From Parafrankia sp. EUN1f (GTDB lineage Bacteria; Actinomycetota; Actinomycetes; Frankiales; Frankiaceae): DNA of 64,000 nt. Each line of letters opens with the position of its first letter. Position 1 is the first letter of the stretch. The DNA lies in NCBI RefSeq assembly GCF_000177675.1, contig NZ_ADGX01000020.1:16-64015 (forward strand), written 5' to 3'. Both the position numbers and the translations under genes were made by a program. This document shows positions 5,802 through 41,174 of this stretch, in pieces. The notes below the pieces were generated by a model. That model saw nothing but the letters and a program-made list of their open reading frames with translations. It was not told the DNA's origin and made no database searches.

Positions 5802-5890
5802 CGGCCTGTCCTCCGACGGCGGGCGGGGAGCGGGCGGCACAATCGCCGGCCGAGGGGGAAAGCATGGCTAGCGGAGGCAGGGGGCGAGAA

Positions 5891-5968
5891 ATGCGTGTGC
5901 TGTTGTCGACGTATGGGTCGCGTGGGGACCTGACTACGCCGGGGTGGGTACCTGGCAGGCATCGGTGA
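5891..5968 (+). pseudogene. Glycosyltransferase (GT1/GT28-like), 5' remnant
   Basis: From ATG 5891 the frame reads MRVLLSTYGSRGDL, the typical first strand and glycine loop of UDP-glycosyltransferases related to the MurG/macrolide-glycosyltransferase fold (often MRVLLSTxGSRGDVEP). After about 14 residues the resemblance stops and the frame closes at 5968 inside the MerR remnant on the other strand. A normal member is about 400 residues. Confidence 0.6.
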
Positions 5969-6275
5969 AAGTCGGATAGCCCTCGCTCCCCGTGCGTTCG
6001 GCCGCATCGATGTAGTTGACGAGCGCGGCCCGGGACCGGGCGAGCCTGTCCATCCGATCGTTCAGACGCCGCAGCCGCGACCGCATCGCGTCGAGCAGCT
6101 CGGGACATCCCGGCAGCTCAGGGGCCTCTCCGACCGCACAGGGCAGCAGGTAGGCGATGTCGTCGGAAGAAAGGCCGGCATCGAGCAGGTGCCGGATCTG
6201 GCTCACCCGCAGCACGGCGTCCTCGTCGTATTCGCGGTAGCCGTTCGCGCGGCGGCCTGCCTCCAGCAGTCCGCC
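5934..6275 (-). pseudogene. MerR-family regulator, 3' remnant
   Basis: Reading leftwards from about 6275, GLLEAGRRANGYREYDED, then VLRVSQIRHLLDAGLSSDDI, a long coiled helix (LRRLNDRMDRLARSRAALV) and an end at 5934 match MerR proteins from the wing onward. The first 30 or so residues with the helix-turn-helix are missing; the frame upstream of GLLEAG is unrelated. The break coincides with the start of a reductive-aminase remnant on the opposite strand, so one deletion appears to have removed both 5' ends. Confidence 0.8.
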
Positions 6276-6586: not shown

Positions 6587-6620
6587 ACGTCCGGGTGCGC
6601 CGGTCGAGCGAAGTGCAATA

Positions 6621-7016
6621 GTCAAGGATCACGGATACGGGCCGTGGGTGCTGGAATCACGCGAGCCTGACCGTCTGGGGGAGTTCCTGGGTTTCGCCGG
6701 CTTGGCGCACGTCCCGCCCTTTCTTGCGGAGGCGGGCCCGGACCCCGAACTGGGCTGGCGGCTGAAGCGGTCGGCGTGGGGGCAGGGGCTGGCCACCGAG
6801 GCTGCTGTGGCAGCCCGTGACGATGCATTCCGGCGTCTCGGACTGCCGGAGATGATCTCGATCATCCATCCGGAGAACGTTCGTTCGCAGCGGGTTGCCG
6901 TCAAGCTTGGAATGCGAGTAGCCCGGCGGATCGACAATCCCGCGATCGGCAGGCGGGTCGACGTCTGGTCTGTTGTGTCGGGGCCCGTGGATGTCGGGCG
7001 TCATCACATCACCTGA
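6621..7016 (+). pseudogene. GNAT acetyltransferase (RimJ/RimL-like), 3' remnant
   Basis: From about 6621 the frame carries DHGYGPWVLE, FLGFAGL, LGWRLKRSAWGQGLATEA (acetyl-CoA-binding strand and R/QxxGxG/A motif) and ISIIHPENVRSQRVAVKLGM, the hallmark end of RimJ/RimL-type GNATs. The first 60-70 residues (normally starting with a TERLxLR motif) are absent, and no plausible start lies upstream. Probably inactive, since the truncation removes part of the acceptor-side fold. Confidence 0.7.
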
Positions 7017-14670: not shown

Positions 14671-15489
14671 GTGACGGTGACGGAGCCCGTGACCGGCGAT
14701 GGTCTGAAGATCTTGTTTCTGTGTGAACAGTACCCGCCAGTTGTATGGGACGGCGCCGGCATCTACACCGCTGTAATAGCGGGGGTGCTTACCGCGCTCG
14801 GCCACGAGGTGCATGTTCTGTGCGCACAGGGACGCCGGATCGTGGACGAGATTCACGACGGGGTGCGGGTTCATCGCCGTCCGCTGCTGCGCGTTCCCGC
14901 CACGCGCATGCTGGGCCGCTACGGTCGGGTGATCGCGGGCCGTCACCACTCTCGGGACTCGCTGAGCCTGCGCGCGAGCCTCGCCGCGTCCTATGCGTTC
15001 TGGCTGCGCCGGCTGGGCCTGCGGCCCGACGTCATCGAGACTCAGGACGGCGACAGTCGCGGGCTGATCCGCATCCTGGGTCACACCTATCCGCCGGTGA
15101 TCCACCTGCACTGCCCGACGATGCTGCCGCCCCGGTTGTCGGGCGAGGAGCTGTCCTGGAAGGGTCGGGTCGCCGATCGCGTTGACCGGGCCGTCGTGGC
15201 GTGGGCCGACGCCAGCGGTCGCCCGGTCGTCGCCACCGCCCGGACCGGGATCGCCCCCTATCTGGAACGTCACGGCGCGGGCGTGGTCGTGCCGCCGGAC
15301 GACCCCGAGGCACTGGCCGCCGCGTTGCGTCCGCTGCTCGTCGATCCGGGACTCGCCGTGACGGTAGGTGCCCGCGGCCGCGCGGCGGTGGCCGACTTCG
15401 AGCCGCGAGCCGTCGCGATGCGCCGCGAGCGGGTCTATCGCCAGGCCATCTCCCGTTTCGAGACCCGCCGCGGAACAAGCCCGCGATAA
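14671..15489 (+). pseudogene. GT4-type glycosyltransferase with an in-frame internal deletion
   Basis: The N-terminal GT-B domain is present: LKILFLCEQYPPVVWDGAGI with a glycine loop, then LGHEVHVLCAQG and a VIETQDGDS strand. Near 15205 the frame jumps from VVAWAD straight to ASGRPVVATARTGIAPYL, which normally follows the LEAMASG motif in the second Rossmann domain, then finishes normally. About 120 residues are missing, including the nucleotide-sugar-binding strands and the E-x7-E region. Frame is open, so a 272-residue product could be made but should not bind a sugar donor normally. The start (GTG 14671, 14677 or TTG 14662) is uncertain. Confidence 0.75.
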
Positions 15490-22933: not shown

Positions 22934-23040
22934 TTACCGGGAGCCGGTTTCGCTGTGGGTTCGGTCGATGAGAGCGGCGATGCCGTCGAGGATCCGGTCC
23001 ACGCCGAAGAGGAACTCCTCGCGGCTGGCGCCCCACCACG
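22934..23040 (-). pseudogene. TetR-family regulator, 3' remnant
   Basis: On the minus strand from about 23040 the frame reads ASREEFLFGVDRILDGIAAL and ends in TAA at 22934. This is the final helix typical of TetR regulators of drug ABC exporters (FEFGLDxILDGI). Everything upstream, including the DNA-binding domain, is absent; the sequence beyond the break belongs to an ABC permease remnant on the other strand. Confidence 0.65.
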
Positions 23041-23043
23041 TCC

Positions 23044-23418
23044 GGGCTGAGATGGCTCGCGGCCGTCGCAATGATCATCTTCTTCATCTTCACGCTGTCG
23101 TGGCTGGCCGCCGCGGTCGGTCTGCTCGCTGGCGGGCCCGAGGCGGCGAACTCGTTCACGTTCGTGCTGATGTTCATCCCGTATGTCAGCACGGCTTTCG
23201 TCCCAGCCCGCACAATGCCGACCGCACTCCGCGGCTTCGCGGAGCACCAGCCCTTCACGCCGATCATCGAGACCATGCGCGGGCTGTGGATGGGACAGAC
23301 CTCGACCGGCGTGGCGCTCGGCCACGAGGCGTGGGTCGCGATCGCCTACTGCCTGGGCATCCTCGTAGTCTCCTTCGCCGGCGCGTCCTGGCTGTTCCGT
23401 CACCGCACCGCGGTGTGA
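23044..23418 (+). pseudogene. ABC-2 permease (DrrB-like), 3' remnant
   Basis: The frame from about 23044 reads LRWLAAVAMIIFFIFTLSWL, then EAANSFTFVLMFIPYVSTAF, MPTALRGFAEHQPFTPIIET, and a last membrane helix before FRHRTAV. This is the second half of daunorubicin-resistance-type permeases, which are about 250 residues. The first half is missing, as is the ATPase gene that should lie before it. It abuts the TetR remnant, its likely former divergent repressor. Confidence 0.8.
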
Positions 23419-23427
23419 TCCCAGCCG

Positions 23428-24192
23428 TCATGGACCTGCGCGGTTGGTGGCCTCGAAGGTCCAGACCTCGGTGCCCGCGGTGGGGGATCGGCCCACCTTG
23501 TAGTCGGCATGCACGGCAACCGTGGTGAGGCCAGCCTCCTGGAGGAGGTCGTCGAACTCGTCGAGGTCCCAGATCTGGAGGGTGAACGGCTCCAGCTCGG
23601 CCTGCGCCAGGCGGCCGTCGCGCCACAGCTCGTACCGGCACCAGCTGGTCTGGCACCGGGGGTCGGTGGGCAGGCCGGGATGACAGGTGAGAGTGATCAG
23701 ATCCGCGCCGTGCCACCAATGGCCCAGTGGCTCGGGCTGAGCGGGTGGGTTGATCGGCTCGACGTCGACGATGAGCCGTCCGCCCGGCACGAGGCTTTCC
23801 CGGATGTTCCGCAGCGCCTGGCGCGCCCGCTCCCGGCCGGTCACCAGGGCGAACGAGCCCGCGGGAATGATGACCGCGTCGAAGGCGGCCGGCTCGCGGA
23901 AGGCGACCATGTCCGCCTCGAACAGCACGGGGTCGAGGCCGTGCGCGGCGCAGTTGTCGCGGCAGATCGTGAGCATGTGGGCGGACGTGTCGTAGCCGCG
24001 CACCCGAAGCCCACTCTGGAGCAGCGGAATCAGAATCCGGCCGGTTCCCACGGCCGGTTCCAGGATCTCGCCGCCGACCTCGGCCAGCAGGGTCCGGTAG
24101 AACTCGACGTCCCCGAACGAGGTCCCGATCGGTTTGTCCAGCTGGTAAACCAGCGAGCACAGCCGTCCATACCGCGGCGGCGCCTCGGTCAT
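23428..24192 (-). CDS. Class I SAM-dependent methyltransferase
   Basis: A 254-residue protein. ILEPAVGTGRILIPLLQSGL is motif I, VRGYDTSAHMLTICRDN motif II, AFDAVIIPAGSFALV the post-II strand, and SLVPGGRLIVDVEPI motif III. The size and start (LVYQLDKPIGTSFGDVEFY) match a group annotated as class I methyltransferases in actinomycetes. AGGGGAGAGGC precedes ATG 24192. Converges with the ABC permease remnant. Substrate unknown. Confidence 0.9.
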   Translation of the reverse strand: MTEAPPRYGRLCSLVYQLDKPIGTSFGDVEFYRTLLAEVGGEILEPAVGTGRILIPLLQSGLRVRGYDTSAHMLTICRDNCAAHGLDPVLFEADMVAFREPAAFDAVIIPAGSFALVTGRERARQALRNIRESLVPGGRLIVDVEPINPPAQPEPLGHWWHGADLITLTCHPGLPTDPRCQTSWCRYELWRDGRLAQAELEPFTLQIWDLDEFDDLLQEAGLTTVAVHADYKVGRSPTAGTEVWTFEATNRAGP

Positions 24193-24346
24193 GCCTCTCC
24201 CCTTCGGACGCGCACGCGTTGAGTTGCCGGATCAGGGCGCTGGCAGGATGTCGGCGCGCGCATCAGCGTACTGATTGACGTTCGCTGGCCGTGACGAGCC
24301 GGCGCCCAGGGGGCCGGGGCTGATCGGGCAGCAGCCGGCCGGCCGG

Positions 24347-24451
24347 TCAGACGGGCGCCGCGTCGACGTCGGTCGAGCGGCTGACGGCGTCCCATGAGTC
24401 GAGGTCGGCCCGGCGCCGGTCCTGAGCGACCCGAATCGACTCGACCGCGTC
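24347..24451 (-). pseudogene. SDR C-terminal scrap, near-duplicate of the one at 28.1 kb
   Basis: On the minus strand about 35 codons encode DAVESIRVAQDRRRADLDSW and DAVSRSTDVDAAPV before a stop at 24347. The DNA is nearly identical to 28090-28195, the end of the SDR remnant there. The rest of the gene is missing. From 24452 to 24613 I see nothing recognisable. Confidence 0.75.
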
Positions 24452-24613
24452 CGCTCGGCCTCGCCCTTGGCCGATGGCCAGTCCTTGTCTTCCGATATGG
24501 GCTAATCGGGAGCGTCGAGCCGCGGAAATCCGGTGACGGTCACCCCGATGAAAACCCGAGGTTGGAACTCGCAGGCATGGATCCTGTTCGGTCGGATCCC
24601 CGTGTAGAGGTCG

Positions 24614-26040: not shown

Positions 26041-26535
26041 GGGGCAGACACGGGATGCGAGTCGGAGAACTCGGCCTCCTCGGGCGCGGAGTACGGCACG
26101 GCGAACGAGTGGCACAACCGTCCCCCCTCGGACACAGGGCGCGGGCGGGAGGATGCAGCTGGCCCGGCCGGGCGCCACGGGCGCCGCAAGCCGTGGAAGT
26201 TCATCGCGCTCGTGACGACCGTGGCCGCGGTCCTCGTGGTCGCGGAGCATCCGGACAGTTCCCTTGTCGCCATCCAGCCGTCGACCGGCCACATCCTGGC
26301 CATTGCCAACAACGCCGGCTACAACGACTTCGCGCTCACCGCGGCGGTGGCACCAGGCTCGACCAGAAAGATCATCTCTGCGGCGGCGCTGATCAGCCAC
26401 GGGGTCGTGACCGCGAACACCCCGGTAGCCTGCCCAGCTGTCTACACGGTGCAGGGCATCAGCTACCACAACGACAAGGGCGAGTCCGAGCCGGCGTCGA
26501 CGTCCTTCGTCCCATGCGCACACTGCGCGACTTGA
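26041..26535 (+). pseudogene. Penicillin-binding protein, broken (internal deletion and 3' truncation)
   Basis: A basic segment and membrane helix (KPWKFIALVTTVAAVLVVAE) is followed at once by SSLVAIQPSTGHILAIANN, YNDFALTAAVAPGSTRKIIS and AALISHGVVTANTPVACPA, the start of a PBP transpeptidase domain. The active site SxxK is present as STRK (usually STMK). The 250-300 residues normally between helix and transpeptidase are missing, and the protein stops at 26535 well before the SxN and KTG motifs. Not expected to be functional. Confidence 0.75.
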
Positions 26536-28034: not shown

Positions 28035-28089
28035 CCTGGGCACGCGTGGGCCCGCACGGCCGGCTACCGCACGGGCAGCGGTGGGCCGG

Positions 28090-28833
28090 TCAGGCGGGCG
28101 CCGCGTCGACATCGGTCGAGCGGCTGACGGCGTCCCACGAGGCGAGGTCGGCCCGGCGCCGGTCCTGGGCGGCCCGAATCGACTCGACCGCGTCCACGCC
28201 CAGGGCCAGGTGCAGCGGCGCGGCCGGCGCGTCGAGGGCGGCGATGATCGCGTCGGCCGCCTTGCGCGGGTCGCCGGGCTGGCCGCCGTCCATCGAGTCG
28301 ACGCCGGCGCGGGTCGGGCCGACGGTTGGCTCGTAGGCGTCGATGCGGCGGGAGCGGTGCATCCCGCGCCCGCCGAACGCGGTCCGGAACGCCCCCGGCT
28401 CGACGATCAGCACCCGGATGCCAAGCGGCTCCACCTCGGCCGCCAGCGACTCGGACAGCGCCTCAAGGGCGAACTTGGCCGAGCAGTACGCCCCGAACCC
28501 GGGCATCGTCACCTGGCCGCCCATCGAGCTGATCTGGACGACCGCGCCGCCGCCCCGCGCCCGCATCCCGGGCAGGACGGCCTGGGTCAGGGCGACCGGG
28601 CCGAAGTACATCGTCTCCATGAGTGTCCGCAGGTCGGACAGGTCGATCTCCTCGACCGCACCGACGGAGCCGTACCCGGCATTGTTGACGAGCACGTCGA
28701 CCCGGCCGAACCGAGCGGTCGCAGCGCCGAGCGCCGCCTGGATCTGGGCCGGGTCGGTCACGTCCAGCGGCAGGGCCAGGGCCCGACCGTCGGCCGAGGC
28801 GACCAGGTCGTCGGCTCGCGGCCCGGGGCGACC
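28090..28833 (-). pseudogene. Short-chain dehydrogenase, 3' remnant
   Basis: The frame from about 28833 reads ADDLVASADGRALALPLDVT and continues with VLVNNAGYGSVGA (NNAG motif), QISSMGGQVTMPGFGAYCSA with YxxxK as YCSAK, and a normal end at 28090. The N-terminal coenzyme motif TGxxxGxG, about 40 residues, is absent, so cofactor binding is lost even though catalytic Tyr and Lys remain. It abuts a LysR remnant on the other strand. Confidence 0.82.
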
Positions 28834-31013: not shown

Positions 31014-31057
31014 CCGTCGGCTGGAACGCACGACGGAGCCCGATCGGCGTCAAGAGC

Positions 31058-31284
31058 GCGATCAGCCTGACCGGTCAGTACGCCGCGATCGACGATCTGC
31101 TGACCGGCCGGGAGAACCTCGAGATGATGGCGCGGCTGCGCCACCTGCCGAGGCGCGAGGTCCGGCCCCGGGTCGACGAGCTGCTGGCGGAGTTCGACCT
31201 GGTCGACGCCCGGGACCGGCGGGTGAGGACCTACTCCGGCGGGATGCGCCGGCGCCTCGACCTGGCGGCCAGCATGGCGAGGCG
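31058..31284 (+). pseudogene. Drug ABC ATPase (DrrA-like), internal fragment
   Basis: SAISLTGQYAAIDDLLTGRE, LMMARLRHLPRREV-like helix and TYSGGMRRRLDLAASM, the ABC signature, are clear. Walker A lies before this segment and is absent; the fragment stops just before Walker B, where NYN-family sequence begins. It matches daunorubicin-resistance-type ATPases, the partner of permeases like the DrrB-like remnant at 23 kb. Confidence 0.8.
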
Positions 31285-31295
31285 GCTGACCTCGG

Positions 31296-31475
31296 GTGGT
31301 CGTTGTCCGCGGGCAGCTTCGCTACCCGAAGGCATGGCCTTCAGAACCCGCGCAGGCGAAGGGCATCGACGTCGCTCCGGCGGTCGATTTCGTGCGTCTT
31401 CCCTGCGAGGGCGCGTACCTGGACGCCGACGACTACGCAGCCTGCCGGGACCACACCGACTACACGGCGATCTGA
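31296..31475 (+). pseudogene. NYN-domain protein, fragment with internal deletion (copy 1)
   Basis: The frame reads VVVVRGQLRYPKAWPSEPAQ, KGIDVAPAVDFVRLPCEGAY and then jumps to LDADDYAACRDHTDYTAI. Against copy 2 (33350-33776) about 50 residues between these blocks are missing, including the LFSRDTDL acidic motif. The N-terminal part is missing too. It is joined directly to the ATPase fragment upstream. Confidence 0.8.
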
Positions 31476-31521
31476 CCAGCAGCCCGGTGGCTGTCGCTGA
31501 GCGGTCGGCTACGGTGAGGGC

Positions 31522-31611
31522 GTGGGACTGCACCTGAGCCAGAACGCCGAAGCGGACGAGCTGCTGACGAACGACCCGTTGGCGCTGCTGATCGGGATGG
31601 TGCTGGACCAG
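31522..31611 (+). pseudogene. HhH-GPD family protein, 5' fragment (copy 1)
   Basis: From GTG 31522, 30 codons (GLHLSQNAEADELLTNDPLA, LLIGMVLDQ) match the start of the full-length gene at 34707 nearly exactly, then stop abruptly. The promoter is also kept: TACGGT at 31510-31515 plus six bases before GTG. Confidence 0.85.
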
Positions 31612-31744
31612 CCGGTATCGGAACCATGGAGTGGGGCCGGGCGGTCTGCGTCTTCGTGGTGACGCATCGTCGGCGCGCGACCGTCTGCGGCAGGCTGGCC
31701 AGGCGCGCGCGGCAGCGCCGAGGCCTGCGAGGAGCCCAGCGGGC

Positions 31745-33349: not shown

Positions 33350-33776
33350 GAGTCGCTGTGTCGACCGCGGCCGTCCCAGCCCCGATCACCAGCCGGAGGC
33401 CGCGAGGACCAGCGACCGGCAGGCCGACCGCTGGGCCCGTGATCCGCGGGTGGTCGTTGTCCGCCGGCAGCTCCGCTACCCGAAGGCATGGCCGGCCGAA
33501 CCCGCGCAGGAGAAGGGCATCGACGTCGCGCTCGCCGTGGATTTCGTGCGCCTTGCCTGCGAAAGCGCGTACGACGTGGGCGTCCTGTTCAGCCGCGACA
33601 CGGACCTTGTCCCCGCGCTGGAGACCGTCCGTGATCTCGGTGCTCATGTGGAGGTCGCGAGCTGGAAGGGCACGAGCCGACTCCGCTTCCCCGACTCACA
33701 GCTTCCCTGGTGCCACTACCTGGACGTCGACGACTACGCGGCCTGCCGGGACCACACCGACTACACGGCGGTGTGA
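33350..33776 (+). pseudogene. NYN-domain (PIN-like) protein, 5'-truncated (copy 2)
   Basis: The frame gives WARDPRVVVVRRQLRYPKAW, EKGIDVALAVDFVRLACESA, YDVGVLFSRDTDLVPALETV and WCHYLDVDDYAACRDHTDYT. These are the second and third acidic motifs of NYN nucleases. The N-terminal segment with the first catalytic Asp (normally in a VDGxN motif) is missing. A GTG at 33450 could start a shorter product. It is a longer relative of copy 1. Confidence 0.75.
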
Positions 33777-33841
33777 GCGACGGGGTGATGTCCGCCGCGG
33801 CACGGTCGGCCGTATCTGCCGGGACCGGGCAGGATGGTTAG

Positions 33842-34520: not shown

Positions 34521-34706
34521 ATCCAGACCGAGCCAGCAGGTGTCGACGTGATCCGGGCATCGGACGGGGCCGGCCCGCGCCGCGTAGTGGCTGTGGTGCC
34601 GGTACTCGGGCGCCGCCGACCGCGAGGTGTGCAGGCACGACGCAGAGCACCCGGCGATCTGACCAGCGTCGCCGGCCATCGAAACGCGGTCGGCTACGGT
34701 GGTGTC

Positions 34707-35282
34707 GTGGGACTGCACCTGAGTCAGATCGCCGAGGCGGACGAGCTGCTGACCAACGACCCGCTGGCGCTCCTTATCGGCATGGTTCTGGACCAGCAGT
34801 TTCCCCTGGAACGTGCCTTCGCGGCGCCGTACGAGCTGACGCGGCGACTTGGGCGTCCGCTCGATGTGGGGGAGATCGCGTCCTTCGACCCCGAGGCACT
34901 GAGCGCGATCTTCGCCACGCCGCCGGCGCTCCACCGGTTTCCCGGCTCGATGGCGAAGCGCGTCCAGGCCGTGTGCCAGGTGTTGGTGGACAACTACGGC
35001 AGCGACCCAACGCAGGTGTGGAGCACCGCGGCCGACGGCCAGGAGCTGCTGAAGCGGATCGGTGCGCTCCCAGGTTTCGGCGCCCAGAAGGCGAAGATCT
35101 TCGTCGCACTGCTCGGCAAGCAGCTCGGCGTCAGGCCGCCCGGCTGGCGTGAGGCGACGGCTCCCTACGGCGACGAAGGCAGCCGTCGGTCGGTCGCCGA
35201 CATCACCAGCCCCGAGACTCTGCTCGAGGTCCGTGATTTCAAGAAGCAGATGAAGGCCGCGGCCAAGGTTGCAGCCTCCTGA
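34707..35282 (+). CDS. HhH-GPD family base-excision-repair-like protein
   Basis: A 191-residue helix-hairpin-helix protein. LSQIAEADELLTNDPLALLI and GMVLDQQFPLERAF are the N-terminal helices; LLKRIGALPGFGAQKAKIFV is the hairpin (LPGxGxxKA) with the following Lys/Asp region. Glycosylase activity is plausible but the family is often annotated only as HhH-GPD. TACGGT (34695-34700) and six bases precede GTG 34707, so it is probably leaderless. A tail of NYN sequence ending at 34662 lies just upstream, as in copy 1. Confidence 0.87.
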   Translation: MGLHLSQIAEADELLTNDPLALLIGMVLDQQFPLERAFAAPYELTRRLGRPLDVGEIASFDPEALSAIFATPPALHRFPGSMAKRVQAVCQVLVDNYGSDPTQVWSTAADGQELLKRIGALPGFGAQKAKIFVALLGKQLGVRPPGWREATAPYGDEGSRRSVADITSPETLLEVRDFKKQMKAAAKVAAS

Positions 35283-38396: not shown

Positions 38397-38780
38397 CTAG
38401 ACGGTGACGATTTCGATGAGGTCTTCGAGGCCGGTGAGGTCGGCGGCGTTGCGGGTGTAGACGCTGGCTTCGTGAGCGTGCGCGGTGGCCGCGATCAGGA
38501 GGTCCATCGTTCGGGCACGTGGCTGGCGCCCGATCTCGACGACGCGGGCGGCGAGTCGCCCGTAGCTGTCGGCGACGGCGTCGTCGAGGGGCAGGGGGTC
38601 GAATCGTCGTTGCAGTGCGCTGAGACGGGCGAGGCGGTTCGCGCGGGTCTCGGAGGTCTTGGCGACCAGGACGCCGAAGTGGAGCTCGGCGATGCTGATG
38701 ACGCTGATCGCGAGTTCGCCGGGGATCGGCGCGACGTCGGTGGCGACCAGAACGCTGGTGTCGAGGATGCCGCGACTCAC
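38397..38780 (-). CDS. PIN-domain toxin (VapC family)
   Basis: A 127-residue PIN ribonuclease. Acidic residues: Asp in ILDTSVLVATD, Glu in SVISIAELHFGV, Asp in RTMDLLIAATAHAH and Asn/Asp in YTRNAADLTGL. Intact by length. Its ATG overlaps the antitoxin stop by four bases. Different subfamily from the PIN toxin at 7 kb. Confidence 0.93.
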   Translation of the reverse strand: MSRGILDTSVLVATDVAPIPGELAISVISIAELHFGVLVAKTSETRANRLARLSALQRRFDPLPLDDAVADSYGRLAARVVEIGRQPRARTMDLLIAATAHAHEASVYTRNAADLTGLEDLIEIVTV

Positions 38781-39025
38781 CGGGTTTCCCAGGGATCTTC
38801 AACGGTGCCGTCGATCAGATCGCGATCGCTGGGCCAGTCCGTGTCGGCCGGGAGGGAGAAGATGTCGGCGAGGTCGTCCCAGCGCCGCCATCTGTGCGGA
38901 GCCACCGGACCGAGCACAGCTGCCGGTCGGCCGGTAACGGTGATGGTCAGCTGCTCGCCGGCCTGGGCGCGCCGCACCAGCTCACTGGCGTTCTGCCGCA
39001 TCTCGCGTAGTCCTATCTCGGCCAC
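38777..39025 (-). CDS. Phd/YefM-like antitoxin
   Basis: An 82-residue protein. LREMRQNASELVRRAQAGEQ and LTITVTGRPAAVLGPV are the Phd/YefM DNA-binding half; the C-terminal SDRDLIDGTVEDPWETR should bind the PIN toxin. GTG 39025 lies six bases after TACCCT, a leaderless arrangement. A short inverted repeat sits just upstream. Confidence 0.9.
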   Translation of the reverse strand: MAEIGLREMRQNASELVRRAQAGEQLTITVTGRPAAVLGPVAPHRWRRWDDLADIFSLPADTDWPSDRDLIDGTVEDPWETR

Positions 39026-39227: not shown

Positions 39228-41174
39228 ATGCCGGACCGTCTGTCGGACGCGGAGATCAAGGCGCTCGCTGAGGCGTGCCCGGGCCGAGTCGAGGCTCGCC
39301 AGCTCCTCGAGGCGGCCGGTGTGAGCCGGGGCCGCCAGCCGATCTGGAACGTCGAGTCGGCGGAACAGTTCTGGCGCGAGGTCTCGCACGTGCTGGCGGC
39401 GGGAATTCGCCTGGACGAGCGTGCCCGCTTCGTCGGCGATGGCCGGGCCAGCCTGTTGGCGGTGGCCGCCGAGTGGTTTGCCGGCAACGAGGTTTTCGCG
39501 CGCGCGGCCGCCGCGGGCCCGGGCGGGCCGCCACCTGGGGAGGGCGGGCCGGGGGCGGTCTTCGACGCGCCGCCGCCGGAACGGGCGGCGGACTGTGCGC
39601 CGAGCGTTCTGCTACGCGCCGAATACCTGGTGGTGCCCTTTGTGGAGCTCAACGGGGACCGCGCCGCTCTGCGGTCCTGGGCGACGCAGCGGCAGCGGGA
39701 ATCGGCTCGCCTGCTGACCGGTCCAGCCGGTTCGGGCAAGACTCGGCTCGCCATGCAGATCGGCGAGGATCTGACCGCCAAAGGGTGGCTGACCGTCCTG
39801 GCCCGATCGGGGTCACCACTGAGCGCGGCCCGGTTGGGATACCTGCGCACCGCTGGCGCACCCACCCTGGTGATCATCGAGGATGCGGAGCTCAGGCCGG
39901 ATGAGACAGTGGCGATCGCACGCGCGCTGGTGGGCCGGTCGACCGCGAGCCGGCTGCTTCTGCTGACCCAGGCCACCGAAGCCCTGCTCCGGGGCCTGCG
40001 CGAGCTGGCCCTGCCGGACACTCAGGTCGCTGGCATGTTCGAGCGAGCGGAACCACAGACGGTTACGCCGCTGGCCCCCGGCCCGCACGCCAGGCAGGTT
40101 CACTTCGCTGCCGCCCGCTCCGCGTTCGCCGCCGAGCTGGGCACCGCGACGGGCGCCGCACCCGACGCCGGCCCGTGGGCCGACATCGAGGACGTGGACA
40201 CGGTGCTGGACGTGCACACGGCGGCATTGCTGGCGGCTCTGTCGGATGCCCCCGTCGCGCGGCCGGCCGAGAGCCCGCTGACGACACTCTGCCGGCACGA
40301 ACGGACACGGTGGCCCAACCCCGCCGGCACGGGCGCGGGTGCCGCGACCGGCCCTGGCACCGGGCTCGCGGCCCAGGTCATCACCGCGGCCACCCTGCTG
40401 CGTCCCGGTTCGGCCGACGACGCGGAAGCACTGGCCGCGATGCTGCCGGAACTGCTTCAGGCCAGCCCCGGCGAGCTGCGGAGCCTGCTGGACGAGCTTC
40501 GTCGCCAGTACGCCGGCCGGTGGGCGGTCGAGGCGCTGTGCCCCAGTGCCTACGGAGAGCACATCGCGGCGGTGGCGCTGGCCCAGTCGCCGTCGCTCGC
40601 CGAGACCATCGCGAAGGCGGCCACGCCGGATCAGGCCGTGACCGCGCTGACAGTGCTCGGCCGGGCACTGCCCGCGCACCCGGAACTGGCTGAGGCGATT
40701 GGAGACATCATCCGGGCTGACCCGGAACGGCGTCTGCTCGCGGCGATCGATCTGCTGCCCCGCCTGCCTGACCCCGACATGTTCGTCCGCGTGATCAGCA
40801 AGCGGGTCGACGACATTCCGCCAGGCTCACCGGCCCTGTTCGCCCTGCTCGACCGAGGTCGGATGGACCGAGGCGGCCCCGAGCTCGACAGTCTGCGCGC
40901 TGAGACCCTGCGGATGCTGACGTCGCTGCCGGACCACCTGCTCGGAGGCGCGCGCTCGGGCCTTGCCCAGGATCCGGCGCTGGCCGGTGTCGCCAGGATT
41001 GTGGACGCCTTCACCCAGACGATCAAGGATCTGGCCATCGGAGTCGTCGACCCGAAATCCGACCGCATGCCCAGGAACCCCGAAGATGGCACCCCGGTCC
41101 TACCGCCTGCGGCAGTGGACGTCCTGCGCGGGCTGATGCGGAGCGACTGGTGGCGGAACCAGGGAGAGAAGTAG
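39228..41174 (+). CDS. Large P-loop NTPase with an EAD1-like N-terminal domain (candidate conflict-system protein)
   Basis: A 648-residue cytoplasmic protein. Residues 1-60 (LSDAEIKALAEACPGRVEAR, QLLEAAGVSRGRQPIWNVES and FWREVSHVLAAG) resemble effector-associated domain 1 (EAD1), a helical adaptor found on STAND NTPases and effectors in bacterial conflict systems. Walker A is GPAGSGKTRL at about 164-173 and Walker B LVIIEDAEL at about 213-221. The C-terminal half is helical with Leu/Ala-rich repeats, like a sensor solenoid. ATG follows GGGGAGG. It lies beside a PIN/Phd toxin-antitoxin pair. The EAD1 assignment is from memory of the motif and unverified; no effector with a matching domain is seen nearby. 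Confidence 0.75.
   Translation: MPDRLSDAEIKALAEACPGRVEARQLLEAAGVSRGRQPIWNVESAEQFWREVSHVLAAGIRLDERARFVGDGRASLLAVAAEWFAGNEVFARAAAAGPGGPPPGEGGPGAVFDAPPPERAADCAPSVLLRAEYLVVPFVELNGDRAALRSWATQRQRESARLLTGPAGSGKTRLAMQIGEDLTAKGWLTVLARSGSPLSAARLGYLRTAGAPTLVIIEDAELRPDETVAIARALVGRSTASRLLLLTQATEALLRGLRELALPDTQVAGMFERAEPQTVTPLAPGPHARQVHFAAARSAFAAELGTATGAAPDAGPWADIEDVDTVLDVHTAALLAALSDAPVARPAESPLTTLCRHERTRWPNPAGTGAGAATGPGTGLAAQVITAATLLRPGSADDAEALAAMLPELLQASPGELRSLLDELRRQYAGRWAVEALCPSAYGEHIAAVALAQSPSLAETIAKAATPDQAVTALTVLGRALPAHPELAEAIGDIIRADPERRLLAAIDLLPRLPDPDMFVRVISKRVDDIPPGSPALFALLDRGRMDRGGPELDSLRAETLRMLTSLPDHLLGGARSGLAQDPALAGVARIVDAFTQTIKDLAIGVVDPKSDRMPRNPEDGTPVLPPAAVDVLRGLMRSDWWRNQGEK

Follow-up and report, generated by a model that had tools for sequence, protein, structure and literature searches.

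Genome content has been reported to be shuffled in Frankia of the Elaeagnus type, where accessory regions gain and lose many genes and islands have been proposed as hot spots, according to the part of that study on which we draw (PMC4117964). Base-level consequences of DNA breakage have been described in Streptomyces ambofaciens, for which the part consulted here reports end-joining scars with deletions estimated at 191-23,591 bp and 1-6-nt microhomology in 50%, two clones that had gained 42 or 83 bp of DNA from the vicinity and, by mention, inserts of up to 18.8 kb; most of the chromosome rescue events in the same study were due to homologous recombination (PMC5869714).

Here, we describe a locus in a stretch of 64,000 nucleotides from Parafrankia sp. 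EUN1f (hereafter, the window), in which the tail of a TetR-family repressor gene on the minus strand is fused to the second half of a gene for a DrrB-type ABC-2 permease on the plus strand. Comparison with relatives suggests that this fusion is probably the scar of a ~2.2-kb deletion by which a Frankia chromosome lost most of a TetR-drrA-drrB efflux locus, the ends most likely having been joined without homology via Ku/LigD end-joining. The scar itself is an ordinary pseudogene remnant of such a locus and, taken singly, matters little, since this is the way in which an expendable exporter locus decays; the cluster of scars to which it belongs is mildly interesting.

The join between the TetR and permease remnants

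A congeneric genome, G003, carries the intact counterpart of the locus on its contig C24, where a TetR gene (302 residues, minus strand) is divergent from drrA (338 residues, plus strand) and drrB (259 residues, plus strand), the products of the latter two matching ABC_tran and ABC2_membrane, respectively, in Pfam. Window sequence from either side of the join is matched by contig C24, on which the two matches are separated by 2,206 bp (C24:116163-118368) that the window lacks: positions 22940-23021 align with C24:116083-116162 at 93% identity, and the permease side matches from C24:118369 onward at ~93% (C24:118369-118875 for window 23022-23500). Within 40 bases either side of the join, each of the 81 positions agrees with one of the two G003 flanks. 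These flanks overlap by 0 bp, within the range of 0-6 bp that defines a homology-free NHEJ scar. Alignment to the intact locus thus bears out an earlier note, made from the letters of the window, according to which remnants of TetR and of a DrrB-like permease abut; the join, which the note had put at 23040/23044, lies ~20 bases further left, at 23021/23022 (Table 1).

Table 1. Coordinates, in the window, of the remnants, the deletion joins and the right flank of the scar
Feature	Position	Strand	Remarks
TetR-family repressor gene remnant	22940..23021	-	~residues 257-278 of 302 recognisable
Deletion join	23021..23022	.	2,206 bp of G003 absent; blunt, overlap 0 bp
DrrB-family ABC-2 permease gene, second half	23022..23418	+	residues 129-259 of 259 and stop codon
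Methyltransferase gene, right flank of scar, still open	23428..24192	-	Methyltransf_25, E 1.9e-12
drrA ATPase gene fragment, displaced, 248 bp	31039..31286	+	from inside the deleted interval
MerR (-) / reductive-aminase (+) join	6269..6272	.	765-bp clean deletion; starts of both genes and gap lost
SDR (-) / LysR (+) join	28811..28813	.	507-bp clean deletion, overlap CG; both starts and gap lost

The comparison with intact TetR-drrA-drrB loci of G003 and other genomes, a check which the same note had proposed, supports the loss in the window. Among 19 related loci fetched from other genomes, nine were inspected, matches of 32% identity or less being left out; TetR is divergent from drrA-drrB in seven of these nine, the two exceptions being L031, which showed drrB alone, and L036, in which TetR lies downstream on the same strand. 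The DrrB match extends over nearly the full length in all nine. The remnants in the window keep the order and the strands of this layout, and the methyltransferase gene on the right flank occupies the same place as in G003, with 94% protein identity. Given the intact layout in G003 and seven of the nine inspected loci, the window most likely carries a deletion relative to that layout, which would be ancestral, and a locus of the drug-exporter type, comprising a regulator gene and two transporter genes, appears to have lost ~2.2 kb.

On the TetR side, identity to G003 reaches 98.5% over the inner 67 bp (22955-23021), which encode, on the minus strand, 22 residues that are 95% identical to residues 257-278 of the intact protein; a 31-bp match to the same tail occurs on contig C328 of the own genome (94%). 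No convincing match to the extreme C-terminus (~residues 279-302) was found left of ~22940, and the TetR piece therefore appears to be a splinter of ~82 bp between two breakpoints. The 46-residue minus-strand frame at 22934-23074 has no match in Pfam or NCBIfam at E up to 10. Although an HMM search of the 22934-23040 frame, which had been named as the test that could refute the TetR reading, was thus silent, the TetR identity stands by ortholog alignment. Such silence is to be expected, since both domain matches of the intact G003 protein (TetR_N at residues 36-80 and TetR_C_1 at 97-173, Pfam) fall into the lost part, which makes the HMM test too weak. HMM searches can miss gene splinters of this kind, and comparison with an intact relative reveals them.

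On the permease side, the window encodes, on the plus strand, residues 129-258 of the 259-residue G003 DrrB at 98.5% identity. The half matches TIGR00025 with E 3.8e-8 over profile positions 111-235 of 238 and PF12698 with E 1.1e-5, both below the curated cut-offs, and the cut-off of PF01061 is likewise missed; with residues 129-259 of 259 alone remaining, it does not represent a complete ABC-2 permease. The closest named relatives of the permease half are Frankia genomes, and four other matches to it in the own genome are paralogs with 25-43% protein identity. As had been claimed, the DNA-binding part of TetR (TetR_N, residues 36-80) is absent from the locus, which retains residues ~257-278, and half of the permease is gone; the claim that the ATPase gene is gone as well holds for the place beside the permease, where none is found, but 248 bp of it persist elsewhere in the window. 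A regulator devoid of its DNA-binding domain and a permease half devoid of an adjoining ATPase gene and of its own first half should function neither as a regulator nor as an exporter.

Nucleotide changes in the permease half bear on the age of the loss. Relative to G003, there are 12 synonymous and 2 nonsynonymous differences over 130 codons (dN/dS 0.05), and polarisation with six outgroup loci placed 6 of the 14 changes on the window branch (5 synonymous, 1 nonsynonymous) and 6 on that of G003, with 2 unresolved. A ratio of this size indicates that the divergence seems to have arisen mostly under selection and that the exporter locus was probably lost recently; continued use of the permease half would yield an equal dN/dS, but is unlikely. 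The corresponding values are 0.18 for the drrA fragment, 0.34 for the SDR and 0.26 for the LysR remnant, 1.05 and 0.09 for two parts of a penicillin-binding-protein gene and, against G003, 0.32 for the open methyltransferase gene; the values of the remnants appear to point to no one shared date.

The displaced drrA fragment and further deletions in the window

The fragment of drrA that survives in the window lies 8 kb from the join and is 96.4% identical to C24:117209-117456 of G003. It contains neither the start nor the end of the gene, and the ORF that covers it matches ABC_tran with E 4.1e-6 (profile positions 58-125 of 137). The best other match of the 248 bp in the own genome reaches 75%, and that of a longer G003 stretch 70-72%, so that the fragment most likely derives from the deleted drrA itself rather than from a paralog. 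Its left neighbour is a block common to G005, and to its right lies a piece that is repeated at 33440. The pieces 31290-31480 and 33444-33781, the former directly right of the fragment, are repeated around an ORF with an NYN domain match. Further along, ~110 bp around the start of a gene for an HhH-GPD DNA-repair protein occur twice (31501-31612 and 34686-34797); stretches resembling this gene start have several matches apiece in G001, G002, G003 and G005 and a single one in G004.

Apart from the 248-bp fragment, the deleted interval has no high-identity match elsewhere in the own assembly. When the intact locus was used as the query, own-genome matches of at least 100 bp inside the interval were at most 77% identical (again, the 248-bp piece excepted), and those above 77%, up to 92%, span merely 36-78 bp. 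These searches lend no support to the idea that the missing DNA sits on other contigs.

Eight further deletions relative to C24 are present in the window. Six of these are gap-free, with joins at 2645, 3990, 6269-6272, 15210-15213, 26238-26242 and 28811-28813 and losses of 441-765 bp, and two contain short leftovers, of 87 bp at 5839-5927 and of 37 bp at 6587-6625. The genes cut include those encoding MFS, MerR, reductive-aminase, glycosyltransferase, SDR, LysR and penicillin-binding proteins. Two of the gap-free joins, at 6269-6272 (MerR/reductive-aminase) and 28811-28813 (SDR/LysR), parallel the one at 23021/23022, in that two divergent genes are without their starts and the gap separating them is gone. 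At 15210-15213, a glycosyltransferase gene lacks 441 bp (147 codons, in frame) and still forms one ORF of 275 residues, compared with 422; at 26238-26242, a penicillin-binding-protein transpeptidase gene contains an internal 752-bp deletion; and the LysR remnant at 28811-28813 reads in two frames relative to G003. From 20 kb on, pieces of C24:105-123 kb are out of order in the window, and all 22 listed matches to C24 (at least 85% identity) share one orientation. The segment 26566-28037, with genes for an MmyB-like regulator and a SnoaL-like protein, has a 90% identical copy on contig C293 of the own genome.

Considered together, the seven gap-free joins have overlaps of 1, 1, 3, 3, 0, 4 and 2 bp, with a mean of 2.0 versus 0.82 for random joins (P 0.014). 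For the join at 6269-6272, GCC stands in both G003 flanks and TCC in the window; if the overlap is counted as 2, because of the one base that differs from the window, P becomes 0.024. With n=7, the excess of microhomology is small. Four of the seven gap-free deletions span the whole gap between divergent genes (expected 1.6, P 0.036; for 4/9, P 0.07), a pattern that was spotted after the fact and is weak.

We also asked how frequent such deletions are elsewhere, counting those with at least 200 bp lost and at most 100 bp left in the genome that harbours the window. Nine were found in ~29.5 kb of the window versus 3 in ~75 kb of four control regions (1 in C24:60-80 kb, 0 in C7:400-420 kb, 1 in ~15 kb of C22 and 1 in C12:60-80 kb), in a count that was made after the region had been chosen for its join and with unequal E-value limits (1e-10 for the window and C22, 1e-20 for C24:60-80 kb and 1e-40 for C7 and C12). 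On these figures, the window region looks enriched in deletions. For the C12 control, another contig contains an 87% identical counterpart to some of the missing sequence. The presence of 3 similar deletions outside the window region, in the ~75 kb of controls, is a point against the explanation favoured below.

Competing explanations and a possible route by end-joining

Several scenarios other than deletion by end-joining were considered, of which an origin by tandem duplication with reciprocal decay is possible, if rather unlikely. Here, each of two copies would have lost different parts, and the drrA fragment at 31039 would be the rest of the second copy. The 3' end of the SDR gene does occur twice in the window (24331-24452 and 28075-28195, 93% alike), one copy being located beside the methyltransferase gene and the other accompanied by more of the SDR gene, and the shared orientation of the 22 listed C24 matches fits as well; yet neither TetR nor drrB nor the methyltransferase gene was found a second time at high identity in the own genome. 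Duplication would alter the origin of the drrA fragment and leave the deletion status of the join untouched. A misassembly, by which two places in the draft were joined wrongly and the DNA between them dropped, appears improbable. The join was read from assembled sequence, the genome is a draft of 9.35 Mb in 396 contigs with a contamination estimate of 4.86, and several similar joins fall within one contig. However, the seven gap-free joins share 0-4 bp rather than sequence of assembler length, the window has no N, and the four control regions are mostly collinear with G003. Furthermore, misplaced DNA should appear on other contigs, and just the 248-bp piece was found at high identity; the absence of the deleted interval from the rest of the assembly argues against simple misassembly.

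Insertion sequences offer another way to remove adjacent DNA, and the element responsible could have been lost later. Frankia CcI3 and EAN1pec are described as rich in such elements, with gene loss in CcI3 linked to transposase clusters, in the part of the source consulted (PMC2770080), and IS4, IS66 and IS110 elements have been seen moving in CcI3, as stated in part of another (PMC11946415). In the window, by contrast, there is no extra base at the join, and Pfam searches detected no transposase or integrase among the 30 ORFs predicted from 13.6 to 41.2 kb, which renders an IS-driven deletion less likely; moreover, each of several clean, remnant-free joins would require its own element loss. 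We consider this scenario very improbable. Neither did scans of the window for tRNA and Rfam families yield any match, so that no tRNA-based integration site is visible. Finally, the permease half might be alive as a truncated gene that has taken on a new role, as its dN/dS of 0.05 over 130 codons and a 115-residue ORF from 23071, with an in-frame ATG and a GC3 of 0.91, could be taken to indicate. It has, however, been deprived of its promoter side, of the first half of the gene and of the ATPase partner, the DrrB match is nearly full-length in all nine inspected loci, and a recent deletion accounts equally for the low dN/dS; the possibility of a live gene is, in our view, slim in the extreme.

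Returning to deletion by end-joining, the favoured explanation, we infer the following course of events. A double-strand break would have occurred within the exporter locus, in a plastic accessory region; the broken ends would then have undergone resection and homology-independent ligation through the Ku/LigD end-joining pathway, so that the TetR tail and the second half of the permease became fused into a dead remnant. The drrA scrap may be a piece of local DNA that was captured at another repair site or, alternatively, the leftover of a duplicate copy. The genome encodes Ku once (G000:C294) and the LigD primase domain twice (C188 and C328), LigD having been searched by its primase domain alone. 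The homology-free join, the overlaps of a few bases at the sister joins, the relocated scrap and the Ku/LigD-type genes all fit end-joining repair, and the shortness of the overlaps argues against repeat-mediated recombination. The bluntness of the join agrees with end-joining without proving it: scars of a similar kind could result from replication slippage or topoisomerase errors.

A broader version, which we regard as doubtful, holds that the region is a break-and-rejoin hot spot, where repeated end-joined breaks would excise pieces of 0.25-2.2 kb, often the starts of divergent gene pairs, and re-ligate some of the scraps nearby. If so, accessory genes in such a region would be broken up where they lie instead of disappearing as entire units. 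The uneven dN/dS values of the remnants do not favour a bolder form of this idea, namely, a single shattering episode. To the right of the remnants, the window also encodes a protein of 648 residues (39228-41174) that has an effector-associated domain (EAD1) as well as a match to STAND-type NTPases and may belong to a conflict or defence system, and, just left of its gene, a PIN/Phd-YefM toxin-antitoxin pair (38397-39025).

Comparison with known systems

The locus resembles the TetR/drrA/drrB efflux loci of Frankia and other actinobacteria (TIGR00025, PF00005, PF02909) in the genes, their order and their orientation on both sides of the join, and differs from intact ones in that the middle 2.2 kb are missing, such that it should not work. 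The gain and loss of many genes in Frankia accessory regions, as described in parts of earlier studies (PMC4117964; PMC2770080), are paralleled in the window; those parts, however, deal with genes rather than with joins at the level of bases, and the join described here has no visible insertion sequence.

Should both the cluster of scars and the relocation of the drrA scrap hold, the region would preserve traces of end-joining repair as it happens naturally in Frankia, and such a record would help to explain the speed at which its accessory regions change. A close parallel is provided by the S. ambofaciens scars, with the difference that, in the part of that work considered here, the break was experimental and the dependence on KuA and LigC/LigD was tested, whereas in the window the mechanism is deduced from sequence (PMC5869714). 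At 248 bp, the displaced drrA piece also exceeds in length the local inserts of 42 and 83 bp reported there (PMC5869714). In other respects, the two sets of scars, as far as the consulted part of the Streptomyces study goes, are alike: deletions range from hundreds to thousands of bases, overlaps at the joins are short and local inserts are found at some of them (PMC5869714).
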